DNA of 64,000 nt, from IMG/VR virus record IMGVR_UViG_3300023116_000009, positions 62,001-126,000 of that record, one strand, 5' to 3'. Below are positions 6,904-39,831 of the stretch, in pieces. The stretch's first letter is position 1, and each line of letters starts with the position of its first letter. The notes beneath the pieces were generated by a model. The model had not been told where the DNA came from. It saw nothing but the letters and a program-made list of their open reading frames with translations, and did not search any database. A program made the translations under genes and the position numbers. This stretch comes from a virus.

Positions 6904-7242
6904 TTAGTCGTCAGGGAATGGATCAGAATCAAAGGCGTCTGTAGGATCAAACTCTACGCTAATTAATTTAGCAACTTGGAATGGAATAGTATTGCCATCT
7001 TCATCCATCATCTCTGGATGTGGTGTAAAGGTGACTTCCTCTTCCTCCTCCTGATTTGCTAAGGTCTCCATAAACGTAGTGAAATATGCATGACCAAACC
7101 ATCCAAATAAAAATCCAATTAGTGCGCTTCCAACCGTAAATAACGTGGAAAATACTAGGATAACTGCTGTCGTCATCTTCTTGTCTCCTTCCTGGGATTT
7201 ATCCTCTATGGGTAAGTTAGGTTTCTTCCTCCTAAGACGCAT
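6904..7242 (-). CDS. Membrane protein, unknown function
   Basis: A basic N-terminus (MRLRRKKPNLPIED) is followed by a glycine-containing membrane helix and an acidic C-terminal tail ending DSDPFPDD. The start at 7242 avoids overlap with the upstream gene. An alternative ATG at 7176 has a stronger ribosome site (AAGGAG) and would give a 90-residue protein starting MTTAVILVF. Topology is probably N-in. Confidence 0.6.
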   Translation of the reverse strand: MRLRRKKPNLPIEDKSQEGDKKMTTAVILVFSTLFTVGSALIGFLFGWFGHAYFTTFMETLANQEEEEEVTFTPHPEMMDEDGNTIPFQVAKLISVEFDPTDAFDSDPFPDD

Positions 7243-7255
7243 GAACTCATCACCT

Positions 7256-7630
7256 TTATTTATGGGCAATTCCTGACTTTCGCTTTTTGATTGTGGTTCC
7301 AGGTTTTCTTCCTGGTCTTCGTTCTTTTTCATACTTCCATGCGTCTGTGAGAATTTTGTAAAGATAGTCCTTAATCTTTCTTGCTTGTGGTTTTGAAAGA
7401 TGACCGTATGCTTCCTTTGCGATTTTATCTTTACCCTTAATGTAAAGTTCTAACTCCAGTACGATGTTAGAAATACTGACAGCAGTAGGACTTTCAATAA
7501 ATGCGGTCACTTCTCTACGAGTGAACTTAGATGATTTCACATATGTGTAGAGATTAAATAGAAACTTTCCGTCAAAGGCAGCATCGATTGACTTTTCGAC
7601 GAGGACGTAAATTTCTTCGGTGGGTTCCAT
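7256..7630 (-). CDS. Conserved hypothetical protein
   Basis: This 124-residue protein has an acidic N-terminus and a basic C-terminus (RRPGRKPGTTIKKRK) that might bind nucleic acid. Its ATG overlaps the glutaredoxin stop as TAATG. No known domain is recognised. Confidence 0.65.
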   Translation of the reverse strand: MEPTEEIYVLVEKSIDAAFDGKFLFNLYTYVKSSKFTRREVTAFIESPTAVSISNIVLELELYIKGKDKIAKEAYGHLSKPQARKIKDYLYKILTDAWKYEKERRPGRKPGTTIKKRKSGIAHK

Positions 7631-7866
7631 TAGATAAGTTCGTTTTCTTGAAGGTAATGCAGTGTGTCTTTGAATCCTCCGATGTGTTTGGTGTTAATAG
7701 AAATCTGAGGGAACGTAGCACCCTCACCAAACTCAGCGTAAAACTCTTTCTTAGTAAAGTGTTTTTCGTACTTATACTCAGTGTATTTAACAGATAAATT
7801 ATCAAATAACATCTTGGCACGGTCGCACCACTGACAATTATCTTTTGAATAAAGAATGACTTCCAT
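7630..7866 (-). CDS. grx: Glutaredoxin
   Basis: This 78-residue thiol-disulfide oxidoreductase has the active site CQWC at residues 11-14 and the cis-proline TFPQI segment, with GGFKDT completing the glutathione-binding edge. It may reduce the phage ribonucleotide reductase. I chose the ATG at 7866, where the glutaredoxin fold begins. A promoter fused to a terminator lies just upstream (7891-7925). Confidence 0.9.
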   Translation of the reverse strand: MEVILYSKDNCQWCDRAKMLFDNLSVKYTEYKYEKHFTKKEFYAEFGEGATFPQISINTKHIGGFKDTLHYLQENELI

Positions 7867-7890
7867 GACCTCCAGGGGTAACTTCAAACA

Positions 7891-7925
7891 AGTATACCAA
7901 TAAAAAAGGGGGGTGTCAACCCCCC
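7891..7925 (-). promoter_or_regulatory. Composite terminator-promoter: -35 is the hairpin loop
   Basis: On the minus strand a GGGGGG/CCCCCC stem encloses exactly TTGACA as its six-base loop (7919-7914). Six T follow, and TATACT (7896-7891) lies 17 bases after TTGACA. The same bases therefore form a rho-independent terminator for the gene ending at 7916 and a consensus sigma70 promoter for the glutaredoxin gene. Confidence 0.85.
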
Positions 7926-8122
7926 AGATCATTGACGATGCGTTTACATTCGTCTATGTTCTTTTTGCAAAAATTGCGAACATAAGAATCAGTATCTACT
8001 TCCATACTATGGTGAGCATGTGTGTGTATCAATTGAATAAAACAAAGAGACCCAAAAGTTATCAATACTAAATGACAAACTGGACTGCTTACACAACAGA
8101 ATAGATTCTTTTTAAAGTTCAT
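7916..8122 (-). CDS. Small membrane-anchored protein, unknown
   Basis: The 68 residues start with a hydrophobic helix and end FCKKNIDECKRIVNDLGG. The stop lies inside the terminator stem at 7908-7925. The ATG at 8122 directly follows the T-run of another terminator and has no ribosome site, so the real start may be the ATG at 8005 (29 residues). The function is unknown. Confidence 0.45.
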   Translation of the reverse strand: MNFKKNLFCCVSSPVCHLVLITFGSLCFIQLIHTHAHHSMEVDTDSYVRNFCKKNIDECKRIVNDLGG

Positions 8123-8147
8123 AAAAAAAGGGGGTCATAAGACCCCC
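8123..8147 (-). terminator. Rho-independent terminator after the beta-barrel-like gene
   Basis: On the minus strand a GGGGGTC/GACCCCC stem with a four-base loop is followed by seven T. It starts nine bases after the stop at 8156. Confidence 0.85.
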
Positions 8148-8155
8148 AACAGAGA

Positions 8156-8521
8156 TCAGAAGGAGTACTTCAGACCAACCTTGGTTCCATAGTTGTTGTC
8201 ACCACCGTCAACGGTAGCGAATGAGATCTCACCATAGATACCCAGGGATTCGGTAGCAGCAACGCCAACACCTGCCTTACCAGAGAAAACAGTGCTGGTT
8301 TCACCACCATCAGGAGTGGCGATAGAAGGACCTGCTTGAGCGTACCAGGAAGCGGACTCACCCAGAGCACCTTCGTAACCGACGTGAAGGTCGGTGGTGG
8401 TGCCAGAGTAGTTGCTGCCGCTGAAACCAGAATTAGCTTCAACGTTCACATAAGGACCTGCCATTGCAGCGCCAGCGAAAAGGGGAGCAGCAGCCAGAGC
8501 TGCGAATGCGGATTTAATCAT
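8156..8521 (-). CDS. Secreted outer-membrane beta-barrel-like protein
   Basis: This 121-residue protein has a clear signal peptide (MIKSAFAALAAAPLFAGAAMA). Alternating polar and hydrophobic strands follow, with LHVGYEG, SWYAQAGP, GVGVAA and a terminal LKYSF whose last aromatic residue is typical of outer-membrane barrels. It may be a minimal porin or opacity-type protein made for the host envelope. The barrel function is inferred from pattern only. Confidence 0.7.
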   Translation of the reverse strand: MIKSAFAALAAAPLFAGAAMAGPYVNVEANSGFSGSNYSGTTTDLHVGYEGALGESASWYAQAGPSIATPDGGETSTVFSGKAGVGVAATESLGIYGEISFATVDGGDNNYGTKVGLKYSF

Positions 8522-8671
8522 TTGAAAATACCTCGTAGAATTTTTACTTGTGGAATGGTTACCCACAGATGTTGGTCGGATCGACTTCCAACGCTTGCTA
8601 ATCATAACAGATCCCGTTGCGAGTAATTGAGGCATTGGTGCTGTTATCCAACTGGCACATGTGACAGTTGT

Positions 8672-8722
8672 AATATATGTATACAAAAAGTATACAAATG
8701 TTAGGTAGTGATAACCACCTAA
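8672..8722. repeat. Hairpin and repeated GTATACAA elements
   Basis: A TTAGGT/ACCTAA inverted repeat (8701-8722) follows tRNA-Ser on the minus strand and may terminate or process it. Next to it TGTATACAAA-like sites occur twice (about 8678-8699). The same GTATAC core occurs in the palindrome at 19840-19853. It may be a protein-binding site. Confidence 0.35.
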
Positions 8723-8725
8723 CAA

Positions 8726-8810
8726 CGGAGAGTCAGGGATTCGAACCCTGGGAGGTGTGACCCTCGCTGGTTTTCAAGACCAGTGCCATAAACCACTCGA
8801 CCAACTCTCC
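8726..8810 (-). tRNA. tRNA-Ser (UGA)
   Basis: The 85-base cloverleaf has a 7-bp acceptor stem (GGAGAGT/ACTCTCC), a TTCGAAT T-loop, a serine-type long variable arm and an anticodon loop CTTGAAA giving UGA. CCA is not encoded. Confidence 0.95.
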
Positions 8811-8812
8811 AG

Positions 8813-9052
8813 TCAGCGACGACTACAATAGTAACCGCCGCGAGGTTTGTCGGCACAAATCCAAACGTTTGTACCTGTATTGTTCCAATGTCTTACTGCG
8901 TTTGCAACAATGAAACAGTTAGTGACAAAATAAGTGAGAAGTATAAGAGTGCGTATACCAGCAACGATATTCGCCTCTTTGTCACTTCGTCCTTCTTTTC
9001 GTCCGAGTGCATAACTCCACAATCTCCATGCATTAGTCAGGATACCCATCAT
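8813..9052 (-). CDS. Small membrane protein, conserved in cyanophages
   Basis: About 79 residues with an N-terminal AWRLWSYALG amphipathic segment and a hydrophobic helix TYFVTNCFIVANAV, a pattern I recognise in cyanomyoviruses. The ATG at 9052 lies inside the preceding short gene, so the frames overlap by 20 bases. The function is unknown. Confidence 0.65.
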   Translation of the reverse strand: MMGILTNAWRLWSYALGRKEGRSDKEANIVAGIRTLILLTYFVTNCFIVANAVRHWNNTGTNVWICADKPRGGYYCSRR

Positions 9053-9197
9053 CATCGTCAAAGATTGGGGTGCATTTTGTGATGTCATCATAAGAAAGAT
9101 ACGATGTCTCATCAGAATAAACTTCTGATTCAATCTCGCTCACCAGTCGCTTAAGTTCTTTAAGCAACTCCTTTAATCTTACTCGATCCATGCCCAT
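9033..9197 (-). CDS. Small acidic-tailed protein, 54 aa
   Basis: The ATG at 9197 lies four bases after the upstream stop with a G-rich ribosome site. The product starts with a basic LKELLKELKRL helix and ends DDDDGYPD, a tail I recognise in small cyanophage proteins. It overlaps the start of the next gene. Confidence 0.65.
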   Translation of the reverse strand: MGMDRVRLKELLKELKRLVSEIESEVYSDETSYLSYDDITKCTPIFDDDDGYPD

Positions 9198-9200
9198 TTG

Positions 9201-9878
9201 TCAACCCCCCTTGAGGAATCCATTTTCCTTCAACCACTTTCGAGTCAGTGGTGTTGGTTCGTAGTCAGTCCACATTGTACCAGAAGCACACGATTCAAGT
9301 GCTTTCATAGTCATACCTTCAGTTCTACCTGCCCATTGTGCTTCTGCCTCCCAAGGAACTGCAGAACTAGGATACGTCCTTTCTGCTAACGTGCGCCAAA
9401 GCATGGGCACTTTCTCTTCTGGCATAATGATAGCGATCATCGAGTTCTTGATGCTACCTGCCATGCAATCCTGAGCAGCGTGCCATCCTTCATGACGCAT
9501 TACCATCATTAGTGTGCCAGGTTCATCCATGTATCTCTTGTTGAGATAGAAGTTATTAGTTACAGTATGGTATACACCACGGTGCATCACAGGAAAATAC
9601 TTACTATCCGCTAGAAACACCTTAACTCCGATTGAATTAAGGGAAGAGAGCATGTTGTTAAACTCAGCAGCAAAAGGAGTATACTCATCAGTATTGGGAT
9701 ACTGAGAAGAAATATCAAGAATGCTGTATACCTCTTTGACTCCATCTGTACATTCCCTGACTATCATACAACCCATGGAATCCATAGAATTGTATCCTTT
9801 AATGTGACCTTTTGTATGGTCCGCAAGTGCAGGGGTAGCAAGAAGAGATGCTGCTAACGCTGCTAAAATCCTTTTCAT
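9201..9878 (-). CDS. Secreted protein with HExxH metallopeptidase motif
   Basis: This 225-residue protein has a signal peptide (MKRILAALAASLLATPALA) and H129-E-G-W-H133. A glutamate-rich WEAEAQWAG segment 44 residues later could supply the third zinc ligand. Several cysteines (37, 43, 138) suggest disulfides. This fits a periplasmic or surface zinc peptidase, perhaps acting on the envelope. Enzyme activity is inferred, not shown. It overlaps the upstream gene by four bases. Confidence 0.7.
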   Translation of the reverse strand: MKRILAALAASLLATPALADHTKGHIKGYNSMDSMGCMIVRECTDGVKEVYSILDISSQYPNTDEYTPFAAEFNNMLSSLNSIGVKVFLADSKYFPVMHRGVYHTVTNNFYLNKRYMDEPGTLMMVMRHEGWHAAQDCMAGSIKNSMIAIIMPEEKVPMLWRTLAERTYPSSAVPWEAEAQWAGRTEGMTMKALESCASGTMWTDYEPTPLTRKWLKENGFLKGG

Positions 9879-10204
9879 TTACGTAATACTCCATCAATAA
9901 ATGTAATGTTTATTCTTGGGAATGCTGCGTAGTGGCAATCCCATTTGGAAGGATAAACTTCTATGGTTCTAGTTATGTAAACTGGTTTAACTTTACCATG
10001 AGATCCATTAGGAACTGCATCCCAACCAATCGCACCATTCAATTCAAAATCTTGAGTTCCTGAATAATCAATCTCAAATAACTGACCAGCAGGATCGATC
10101 CAGTATGTCATCATTGAACATTCAAGATCCTTTGTCTGTAAATCTCTATGCCAAAAACTAGGACCCAAATCAATGGAAGACCTAATCGTATCAAACATTC
10201 CCAT
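9875..10204 (-). CDS. Conserved cyanophage protein MGMFDTI type
   Basis: This 109-residue soluble protein begins MGMFDTIRSSIDLG and has a QLFEIDYSGTQDF segment, a pattern I recognise from cyanomyoviruses. The function is unknown. A consensus composite promoter lies upstream at 10225-10253, so it leads its own unit with the secreted HExxH gene behind it. Confidence 0.7.
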   Translation of the reverse strand: MGMFDTIRSSIDLGPSFWHRDLQTKDLECSMMTYWIDPAGQLFEIDYSGTQDFELNGAIGWDAVPNGSHGKVKPVYITRTIEVYPSKWDCHYAAFPRINITFIDGVLRK

Positions 10205-10224
10205 GTTAGATTGCGGTTATACTA

Positions 10225-10261
10225 ATTATACCGAAAAAAAGAGAGGGTGTCAACCCTCTCT
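10225..10261 (-). promoter_or_regulatory. Composite terminator-promoter: -35 is the hairpin loop
   Basis: The minus strand has an 8-bp AGAGAGGG/CCCTCTCT stem whose loop is exactly TTGACA (10253-10248). A T-run follows and TATAAT (10230-10225) lies exactly 17 bases after TTGACA. It terminates the DUF4278 gene and starts the MGMFDTI gene. Confidence 0.87.
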
Positions 10262-10274
10262 GTCTACAAGTAAC

Positions 10275-10439
10275 TCACTTATTATAAGTGTGACCACGAT
10301 AACAGAATGTACCGTGGGTCTCATCGACTCCTTGCTTACACTCATACTTGACACCACGATAGGATGTCATGTGAATTTGTGCATCATGAAGTGCAGATGC
10401 CTTTTGGATCTGCTGGCGAATGAGGTTAAGTGTGTTCAT
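10275..10439 (-). CDS. DUF4278 protein, 54 aa
   Basis: The C-terminal half contains YRGVKYEC and TFCYRGHTYN, the DUF4278 signature found in small proteins of cyanobacteria and their phages. The ATG at 10439 has a TAGGAG ribosome site eight bases upstream. The function is unknown. It ends just before the composite terminator-promoter at 10225-10261. Confidence 0.8.
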   Translation of the reverse strand: MNTLNLIRQQIQKASALHDAQIHMTSYRGVKYECKQGVDETHGTFCYRGHTYNK

Positions 10440-10496
10440 GATTTTACTCCTAAAAGAATGGGTGAATTAACTCCCGTTCCTTCAGTCGTTTGCGTC

Positions 10497-10682
10497 CTAT
10501 GCCTCTAAAGAAAAGCATACAGGATCAGTATGATCCATCCATTTAAAGATAAGTTCGACCTTTTCAGATGGACTAAAAAGTTCGGACTCTAATATTCCTT
10601 GAGATAACCACTCAAAGTCCTCACACTTTAAATAATCTGAAGATGGGACATGAGTAGCGAGTAGTAAACTGAGAAATAGCAT
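10497..10682 (-). CDS. Small protein with signal-like N-terminus
   Basis: The 61 residues start MLFLSLLLATHVPSSDY, which may be a signal or anchor, then an acidic segment ending DHTDPVCF. It looks conserved in cyanophages. A TTGACT-17-TATACT promoter lies about 80 bases upstream. The function is unknown. Confidence 0.6.
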   Translation of the reverse strand: MLFLSLLLATHVPSSDYLKCEDFEWLSQGILESELFSPSEKVELIFKWMDHTDPVCFSLEA

Positions 10683-10716
10683 AGGATGAACGCTCCGTTC
10701 CGCGACTTACTTGCGT

Positions 10717-10748
10717 CTCATTCGCTATTCGCAAACAGCGAATGGGAT
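10717..10748 (-). repeat. Strong inverted repeat in 5' leader
   Basis: CATTCGCT and AGCGAATG form a perfect 8-bp stem with a 10-base loop in the leader between the promoter at 10762-10790 and the gene starting at 10682. Copies of GATGAACG flank it. It could be a leader regulatory structure. Confidence 0.45.
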
Positions 10749-10761
10749 GAACGACAGGTCT

Positions 10762-10797
10762 AGTATAGACCACATCAACTATTTAGTCAAGTGGTCT
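10762..10797 (-). promoter_or_regulatory. Promoter with -35 in hairpin loop
   Basis: The minus strand reads TTGACT (10790-10785), 17 bases, TATACT (10767-10762). An AGACCAC/GTGGTCT stem (10797-10791 with 10773-10767) encloses the -35 in its loop. There is no T-run, but A/T-rich sequence precedes it. The layout matches the other composite elements. Confidence 0.65.
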
Positions 10798-10905
10798 TTA
10801 TTTTTTCTTCCCCCCGTTCTTAGCTTTCTTCGCAGTCGCGTTGCCCTGGTTCTGCTTCTTGTTGTTCGCAGTGCCCTTCTTGCCCTTGTTTGGTGACTTG
10901 GACAT
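10798..10905 (-). CDS. Tiny lysine-rich protein, 35 aa
   Basis: The ATG at 10905 has a strong AAGGAG site seven bases upstream. The product starts MSKSPNKGKKGT and consists almost only of K, N, G, A, Q, T and S, with about 13 lysines and a GGKKK end. It probably binds nucleic acid. Most of it overlaps the C-terminal codons of the gene ending at 10820 in another frame. Confidence 0.65.
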   Translation of the reverse strand: MSKSPNKGKKGTANNKKQNQGNATAKKAKNGGKKK

Positions 10906-11041
10906 CAGTCATCTCCTTAAAAGATATATTCAATATGTATGCAACATAATACAAAACTCCCGCCAATAATATGACGAGAGAAATGATTACAGACCAAGTT
11001 GGGTCATTAACGTCATTCAGAGGGCGAAGAAACAAGTTCAT
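10820..11041 (-). CDS. Small single-pass membrane protein
   Basis: 73 residues: a short N-terminus MNLFLRPLNDVNDP, one hydrophobic helix and a charged tail. I recognise the first 45 residues in cyanophages. The last 28 overlap the lysine-rich gene and may be poorly conserved. The start overlaps the upstream stop by four bases. Confidence 0.6.
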   Translation of the reverse strand: MNLFLRPLNDVNDPTWSVIISLVILLAGVLYYVAYILNISFKEMTDVQVTKQGQEGHCEQQEAEPGQRDCEES

Positions 11042-11265
11042 GGATTCTTTGGATCAATTCCTAAACTAGTTAGGTAATCAATCCACCATTGAGGATCTTT
11101 ATTTCTTTTCCAGTTGGGAACCTCTTGACCCTTATCGAAGTAGTACTTCCAGAGTGCCTCATCGATAATCTGTGCGGTCTCCATACTCCTCTTCCTCTTC
11201 ATCAACGTCTGCATACGGATTTTCCACAAAGGGTCCTCGTTTTCGTAGAGGTTCTTGTCTGACAT
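11038..11265 (-). CDS. Conserved small protein MSDKNLYENE type
   Basis: 75 residues, with DEALWKYYFDKG and KRNKDPQWWIDYLTSLG segments that look conserved in cyanophages. I chose the ATG at 11265 over 11280. About 107 bases (11159-11265) also encode the C-terminus of the membrane protein ending at 11159. The function is unknown. Confidence 0.65.
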   Translation of the reverse strand: MSDKNLYENEDPLWKIRMQTLMKRKRSMETAQIIDEALWKYYFDKGQEVPNWKRNKDPQWWIDYLTSLGIDPKNP

Positions 11266-11368
11266 AATCCGTCTCAGCATTAACAGCGTCTATCCAAACA
11301 GCAAGTTTCATCACAATAAACATAATCACAAGTGGAAGAAAACATGCAATTAAAATTAGTGATTTCAT
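11159..11368 (-). CDS. Small membrane protein with acidic tail
   Basis: 69 residues: an N-terminal hydrophobic helix MKSLILIACFLPLVIMF and a charged tail ending YGDRTDYR. The ATG at 11368 overlaps the upstream stop as ATGA. The tail-coding part overlaps the next gene in another frame. Confidence 0.6.
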   Translation of the reverse strand: MKSLILIACFLPLVIMFIVMKLAVWIDAVNAETDYVRQEPLRKRGPFVENPYADVDEEEEEYGDRTDYR

Positions 11369-11526
11369 CTGTGCTTTCTGGTAAAAGGTTCCCAGTGCTC
11401 CCATTTGTATTTATGTACTGCCCACATTCCTAAGATAGGAAAGAAGACCAAAGAGAACCCCATGACGCCTAAGCACCAGGGGGTTTCCATTACCATTCTT
11501 GCTATGTGTCCTGCTTCGTGCATCAT
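11365..11526 (-). CDS. Small membrane protein, 53 aa
   Basis: The start MMHEAGHIARMV is followed by a membrane helix (LGVMGFSLVFFPILGMW) and a basic WEPFTRKHR end. The ATG at 11526 overlaps the stop of the 28-residue gene. The longer open frame to 11661 is a shadow, because two other small genes fill it. Confidence 0.55.
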   Translation of the reverse strand: MMHEAGHIARMVMETPWCLGVMGFSLVFFPILGMWAVHKYKWEHWEPFTRKHR

Positions 11527-14079: not shown

Positions 14080-14105
14080 AAAAAAGAGGGTCATTTGACC
14101 CTCTC
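14080..14105 (-). terminator. Rho-independent terminator after psbA
   Basis: An AGAGGGTC/GACCCTCT stem is followed by six T on the minus strand. T residues on the other side could allow weak function in the opposite direction. Confidence 0.8.
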
Positions 14106-18196: not shown

Positions 18197-18225
18197 AGTA
18201 TATAGGAAATATTAAGGAATGTCAA
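18197..18225 (-). promoter_or_regulatory. Sigma70-type promoter for hli
   Basis: The minus strand reads TTGACA (18225-18220), 17 bases, TATACT (18202-18197). A short AAGG/CCTT stem encloses the -35, a weak version of the composite layout seen at 7891 and 10225. Confidence 0.8.
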
Positions 18226-20983: not shown

Positions 20984-21018
20984 GCAAGTATTATACTGGA
21001 TAATACTTGCGGTGTCAA
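20984..21018 (-). promoter_or_regulatory. Consensus promoter for tRNA-Pro inside a palindrome
   Basis: The minus strand reads TTGACA (21018-21013), 17 bases, TATAAT (20995-20990). A perfect 11-bp inverted repeat, GCAAGTATTAT/ATAATACTTGC (20984-21010, five-base centre), covers the -10 and most of the spacer. This would suit an operator. Confidence 0.8.
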
Positions 21019-39795: not shown

Positions 39796-39831
39796 ATTAT
39801 AAAAGGGTCTCAACCATTTGTCAAGACCCTT
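39796..39831 (-). promoter_or_regulatory. Composite terminator-promoter
   Basis: An AAGGGTC/GACCCTT stem (39831-39825 with 39809-39803) ends in TTTT. TTGACA (39824-39819) lies in its loop, and TATAAT (39801-39796) follows 17 bases later, sharing the T-run. It terminates hsp20 and starts paralogue C. Confidence 0.85.

Follow-up and report, generated by a model that had tools for sequence, protein, structure and literature searches.

A 37-base element on the minus strand of a T4-like cyanophage genome very probably ends one transcript and starts the next. We consider it highly probable that this element is both the terminator of a DUF4278-like gene and the sigma70-type promoter of the phrog_1615 gene behind it, with the -35 box forming the hairpin loop of the terminator. 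Pattern counts and alignments indicate that the nested design is not due to chance and that it recurs across many cyanophages with different, compensating stems.

The element and its neighbours

The window analysed here is a stretch of 64,000 bases, corresponding to bases 62001-126000 of a 186,087-base IMG/VR virus record. In DNA as well as in gene content, it matches T4-like Synechococcus cyanophages of the family Kyanoviridae. On the plus strand, positions 10225-10261 read ATTATA CC G AAAAAA AGAGAGGG TGTCAA CCCTCTCT; the element therefore lies on the minus strand, where the 37 bases from 10261 to 10225 read AGAGAGGG-TTGACA-CCCTCTCT-TTTTTT-CGG-TATAAT. All the parts named in the initial annotation, that is, an 8-bp stem, an exact TTGACA loop, a T-run and TATAAT at a spacing of 17, can be seen by direct reading of this strand (Table 1).

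Table 1. Features of the element at 10225-10261, of the second element near 7891 and of the hli promoter used for comparison (window coordinates).
Feature	Position	Strand	Basis
Downstream gene, 109 aa, phrog_1615 (unknown function)	9875..10204	-	ORF and family matches
-10 hexamer TATAAT, 17-base spacer	10225..10230	-	sequence
T-run 3' of the hairpin, predicted terminator U-tract, inside the -35/-10 spacer	10234..10239	-	
Hairpin AGAGAGGG-TTGACA-CCCTCTCT, predicted terminator, 8 bp (9 if the loop T-A pairs)	10240..10261	-	sequence, fold
Hairpin arms AGAGAGGG; CCCTCTCT	10261-10254; 10247-10240	-	sequence
-35 hexamer TTGACA, the hairpin loop	10248..10253	-	sequence
Upstream gene, 54 aa, phrog_545, weakly DUF4278-like, would-be target of the hairpin	10275..10439	-	ORF and family matches
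Glutaredoxin gene downstream of the second element	7630-7866	-	
-10 of the second element, TATACT, preceded by extended -10 TG	7891..7896	-	
Second nested element, hairpin GGGGGG-TTGACA-CCCCCC, then TTTTTT	7908..7925	-	sequence, fold
Own hli promoter (comparator), TTGACA-17-TATACT, without strong hairpin or T-run	18197..18225	-	

The hairpin has the features of an intrinsic terminator, namely a GC-rich stem of at least 5 bp, a short loop and at least five T in the next eight bases; the run comprises six T, or seven if the last stem base is included. The RNA fold of the inverted repeat has an energy of -14.5 kcal/mol (z -2.6), with a 9-bp stem and a TGAC loop. The promoter agrees with the sigma70 consensus at 12 of 12 positions with a spacer of exactly 17 (16-18 being the accepted range), has an exact TTGACA and has no extended -10 TG. 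The flanking genes, whose bounds are mechanical ORF calls, are co-directional, both being on the minus strand, and the ATG of the 109-aa gene lies about 20 bases past the -10 box. A search of positions 7000-11500 against Rfam gave a tRNA (8726-8810) as the sole match and none above the gathering score at the element.

The element had been annotated initially as a second exact copy of a design present near 7891. The hairpin-loop design is indeed shared by the two sites; the promoter is not copied exactly, since the -10 box near 7891 is TATACT with an extended -10. The same annotation held that this is not a simple duplication, and an origin by duplication of the 7891 copy can be ruled out, because the two stems differ and many further stems are known among the IMG/VR instances. 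Exact TTGACA-N15-19-TATAAT sites number seven in the window, compared with 0.08 expected. The whole 186-kb genome has two sites at which TTGACA lies in a stem of 6 bp or longer and is accompanied by a T-run and by a -10 box matching at 5 or more of 6 positions, and this combination was absent from 60 genome shuffles (approximate dinucleotide resampling) even with stems of at least 4 bp.

Several other signals in the window can be noted. At 39796-39831 (minus strand), the sequence AAGGGTCTTGACAAATGGTTGAGACCCTTTTATAAT has an 8-bp stem and a long loop containing most of the -35 box, with the -10 box immediately after; it is a second nesting geometry. The -10 box of an exact promoter at 20990-21018 (minus strand) is part of the inverted repeat GCAAGTATTAT/ATAATACTTGC, which may be an operator. 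Directly downstream of psbA, the hairpin AGAGGGTC/GACCCTCT at 14084-14105 is T-rich on either side and is likely a bidirectional terminator. Positions 8156-8521 of the minus strand encode a beta barrel similar to cyanophage outer-membrane proteins (PF24653, E 7e-50); a protein with a similar C-terminus is encoded immediately 5' of hli elements in other phages.

Recurrence and context dependence in cyanophages

IMG/VR was scanned with patterns that had a common tail and differed in the flanks or the loop alone. GGG-TTGACA-CCC was found in 118 stretches and CCC-TTGACA-GGG in 81, whereas the non-complementary controls GGG-TTGACA-GGG and CCC-TTGACA-CCC gave 4 and 1, i.e., 199 complementary versus 5 non-complementary instances IMG/VR-wide. 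A permuted loop, GGG-TCAGTA-CCC, was found in 0 stretches of IMG/VR (one permutation was tried). The flank counts alone could merely mirror the abundance of terminators, so what matters is the empty loop control together with the clustering of spacers and the outer stem pairs. The spacer was 16-18 in 124 of the 132 unique complementary instances, although the pattern permitted about 7-31, and complementarity at stem pairs 4-7, beyond the fixed seed, exceeded that of all 2000 shuffles. Contigs with proteins best matching cyanophages carried 125 of these 132 instances and none of the five controls. Cultured cyanophages with such an element include S-RIM32 and S-PM2 (at the hli locus), ACG-2014h (at 181726) and S-SCSM1 (at 146713). 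The initial claim of selection on the design is supported by the excess of complementary flanks and by compensating stems around a constant loop.

A host origin of the design was rejected: a scan of genomes from bacteria and archaea, 257 Gb in all, gave just 14 pattern matches, none of them cyanobacterial by title. Among the IMG/VR matches listed (L447-L562), another hairpin, GGAGGGG-TTGCGA-CCCCTCC, followed by a T-run and ATGCTATAAT, recurs; its TTGCGA loop is a poor -35 box but a possible candidate for a stable tetraloop.

The high-light-inducible (hli) genes make it possible to follow the design at one locus. Eighty hli loci (L563-L642) were collected via the protein, and a TTGACN-type promoter lies upstream of hli in 76 of them. 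The 57 unique promoter regions include 29 in which a hairpin surrounds the -35 box. Where the hairpin is present, the end of a co-directional gene lies 8-75 bases upstream in 26 of 28 cases, compared with 3 of 28 where it is missing (p = 3e-10; this and the other p-values are optimistic, the related and metagenomic sequences not being independent). The genes upstream of the hairpin-type promoters belong to about eight unrelated families. Since the hairpin tracks the co-directional upstream gene, it behaves like a terminator retained solely where the neighbouring gene requires one. Retention of the promoter with loss of the stem had been named at the outset as a finding that would speak against a dual role; it does occur, in about half of the hli orthologues, mostly in those without a co-directional gene just upstream.

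Covariation was analysed in 17 distinct hli elements sharing one register. Two stem pairs repeatedly change on both sides and are never broken, with GC replaced by AU in seven elements and UA by GC or GU in six. The covariation score of 0.324 was matched by none of 500 shuffles, and the maximum obtained with slid registers was 0.151. The second of these pairs includes the sixth base of the -35 box, the co-change being TA to GC, while TTGAC is invariant in all 17 elements despite the stem changes. Thus, the compensating changes around a constant loop that the initial annotation had proposed to look for are present. Both constraints are visible in the hli family, where the sixth -35 base changes with its stem partner and TTGAC stays fixed: a loop doubling as a -35 box would subject one short sequence to two codes at a time, that of sigma recognition and that of RNA folding.

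The sixth base of the -35 box is A in 15 hairpin-type hli promoters and another base in 14, whereas it is A in 26 of 27 promoters without the hairpin (p = 1.7e-4). The -10 box is TATAAT in 23 of 29 hairpin-type promoters versus 6 of 28 hairpin-free ones, which mostly have TATACT (p = 1.6e-5). This may reflect either a stronger -10 box where the -35 box is nested or shared ancestry.

Proposed function and alternative explanations

Dual use of the element is very likely, to judge from its sequence and context, and could proceed as follows. Having passed through the upstream gene (10439 to 10275, minus strand), RNA polymerase would transcribe the inverted repeat, and the RNA hairpin AGAGAGGG/CCCTCTCT together with the U run would release the transcript near 10234-10240. 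In its double-stranded form, the element would be a consensus promoter for the host sigma70-type (RpoD/SigA) RNA polymerase, with the loop as the -35 box, the 3' arm and the T-run as the 17-bp spacer, and the TATAAT after the T-run as the -10 box. Initiation would be expected about 7 bases beyond the -10 box, ahead of the 109-aa gene, and the host polymerase would probably use the promoter early in infection. Such a design would insulate the gene from its upstream neighbour and let it be started on its own within very little DNA. The arm (about 8 bp), the U-tract (about 7 bases) and 2-3 further bases add up to about 17 bp, the optimum for a promoter spacer, which means that a terminator abutting a -10 box already has its loop at -35; selection would need only to adjust the loop sequence to TTGAC(A). 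For genome annotation and cyanobacterial synthetic biology, the element may represent a compact insulator-promoter part, and in cyanophages, promoter and terminator predictors are better run jointly.

Three forms of the element were found at the phrog_1615 gene. The arms are AGAGAGGG/CCCTCTCT in the window, GAAGGGG/CCCCTTC in L133-L135 and GGGGGGG/CCCCTCC in L151, and all three forms have the TTGACA loop, the T-run and TATAAT at 17. Therefore, at this gene too, the comparison of orthologues suggested by the initial annotation reveals different stems with an unchanged loop. Most of the 63 phrog_1615 relatives are located behind other genes, and the element is absent there. In the S-H25 phage, the upstream gene is shared as far as the element, with 89.7% nucleotide identity, after which a different, talC-like gene follows, and a plain terminator stands after the same upstream gene. 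This plain terminator and the hli promoters without a stem indicate that the terminator and promoter functions are separable; the nested form is apparently used where both are needed.

These comparisons bear on the explanation that the element acts primarily as a short stretch of common sequence at which genes are shuffled, like the promoter early stem-loop (PeSL) cassettes of RB49-type phages, its regulatory role being secondary. The variety of gene families preceding the hli elements, one breakpoint at the element in the comparison with S-H25 and the role of PeSLs in gene shuffling reported for T4-like phages, as cited in PMC4503421, are consistent with such a recombination site. However, the stems diverge between copies, which weakens the homology, the gene order around phrog_1615 changes both with and without the element, and Puxty et al. 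considered gain through PeSLs improbable in the case of the S-PM2 ORFanage (PMC4503421). We regard this explanation as unlikely, although it deserves some weight.

Another possibility adds to the dual use rather than replacing it: the polymerase would stay on the DNA after RNA release and restart at the co-located promoter, coupling both genes. After termination, RNA polymerase was reported to remain on the DNA in vitro, to diffuse and, if sigma is kept, to be able to reinitiate at nearby promoters (PMC6978380, PMC6978322). A distance of about 20 bases separates the predicted release site from the expected start, which fits such a hand-off, but coupling and mere insulation agree equally well with the data, and a terminating polymerase could instead block the promoter. 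The hand-off is improbable on balance. There is likewise a small chance that the polymerase ending the upstream transcript is retained at, or brought to, the promoter sharing its hairpin, in which case terminators with the -35 box in the loop would act as a relay passing the host polymerase between successive early units of cyanophages. In any case, the element offers a natural test bed for the effect of a terminating polymerase on a promoter at the same site.

The nested arrangement could also be a geometric by-product, i.e., a terminator fused to an extended -10 promoter, whose loop has no promoter role and lies at -35 because of the ~17-bp geometry. To list terminators without regard to promoters, we took 276 strong ones from 13 cyanophage genomes (the window's own among them) and, for comparison, 133 from T4, RB49 and KVP40. 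The -10 boxes of the cyanophages peak 19-20 nt past the centre of the terminator loop, which corresponds to a loop at -35: 28 were observed at these distances, with a background of about 2.1 per position (about 4 expected; p = 2e-14). One terminator of the comparison set has a -10 box in this register (p = 1.4e-4 versus the cyanophages), and nested units account for 17 of the 276 cyanophage terminators versus none of the 133 others. Many cyanophage terminators abutting a -10 box, most commonly in P-SSM2 and P-SSM4, have a loop that is not -35-like and are often followed by TGnTATAAT; by their sequence, they form a fused terminator/extended -10 type. The commonest loop of all terminators in the surveyed genomes is TTCG. 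Accordingly, the loop -35 may add little in some cases, as the by-product explanation supposes. Against it, loops match the -35 box at 5 or more of 6 positions in 9 of 28 terminators in register versus 6 of 239 others (p = 1.4e-6), and the permuted loop gave 0 matches against 118 (for the one permutation). Moreover, the window element combines an exact TTGACA with the lack of an extended -10 TG, and in the hli family, TTGAC is constant despite the variation of the stem. A mere by-product is thus quite unlikely.

When the search starts from cyanophage TTGACA promoters, 5 of 246 (~2%) lie tightly within a stem, and slid controls gave 0-6; only a minority of these promoters use the nested form. 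The weakness of this enrichment is due to the facts that the T-run and stem quality were not demanded and that registers vary. Searches starting from terminators or from orthologues are more informative.

It is very improbable that the inverted repeat, although it overlaps the promoter, serves to attenuate the downstream gene or to bind a repressor, since the hairpin lies 5' of the expected start and would be absent from the downstream RNA, Rfam gave only the tRNA in this region, the stems vary freely with compensation, a freedom incompatible with sequence-specific protein binding to the DNA, and the presence of the hairpin follows the co-directional upstream gene.

Comparison with known systems

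PeSL cassettes of T4-like phages were reportedly described by Arbiol in 2010 and Comeau in 2014. The window element resembles them in that a strong sigma70-like early promoter and a terminator stem-loop form one intergenic unit in T4-like myoviruses; PeSL cassettes also adjoin shuffled genes. By sequence, the window has both the T4-like myovirus host, given the Kyanoviridae match, and the promoter/terminator cassette. In the citing text of PMC4503421, the PeSL is likewise a composite of a promoter and a stem-loop in T4-like phages. The difference is in the geometry. About a dozen of the 66 promoters of RB49 have a terminator stem that ends 12-32 nt before the -35 box, so that terminator and promoter stand in tandem, whereas in cyanophages the hairpin is nested around the -35 box and the U-tract lies in the spacer; the window element does not have the RB49 arrangement, in which the terminator is ahead without overlap. 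Since the element would work like a PeSL but departs from the RB49 geometry, nesting is probably a variant of the PeSL kind that belongs to cyanophages, as far as that kind is described in the citing text. Puxty et al. found PeSL-like signals to be merely sparse near the S-PM2 ORFanage (PMC4503421), and the hli element of S-PM2 at 124309, with a TTGACT loop and TATAAT, is absent from the coordinates in their paper. The part of the literature that was searched contained no report of a -35 box within a terminator loop in phages.

With intrinsic (Rho-independent) terminators, the element shares the GC-rich hairpin, the T-run directly after it and the position behind a stop codon; unlike them, it has the -35 box as its loop rather than a stabilizing one like TTCG. 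With consensus sigma70 promoters, i.e., host-like early cyanophage promoters, it shares TTGACA-17-TATAAT. The difference is that the promoter of the window is embedded in a terminator, and for this reason, transcription from upstream should end within the promoter itself.
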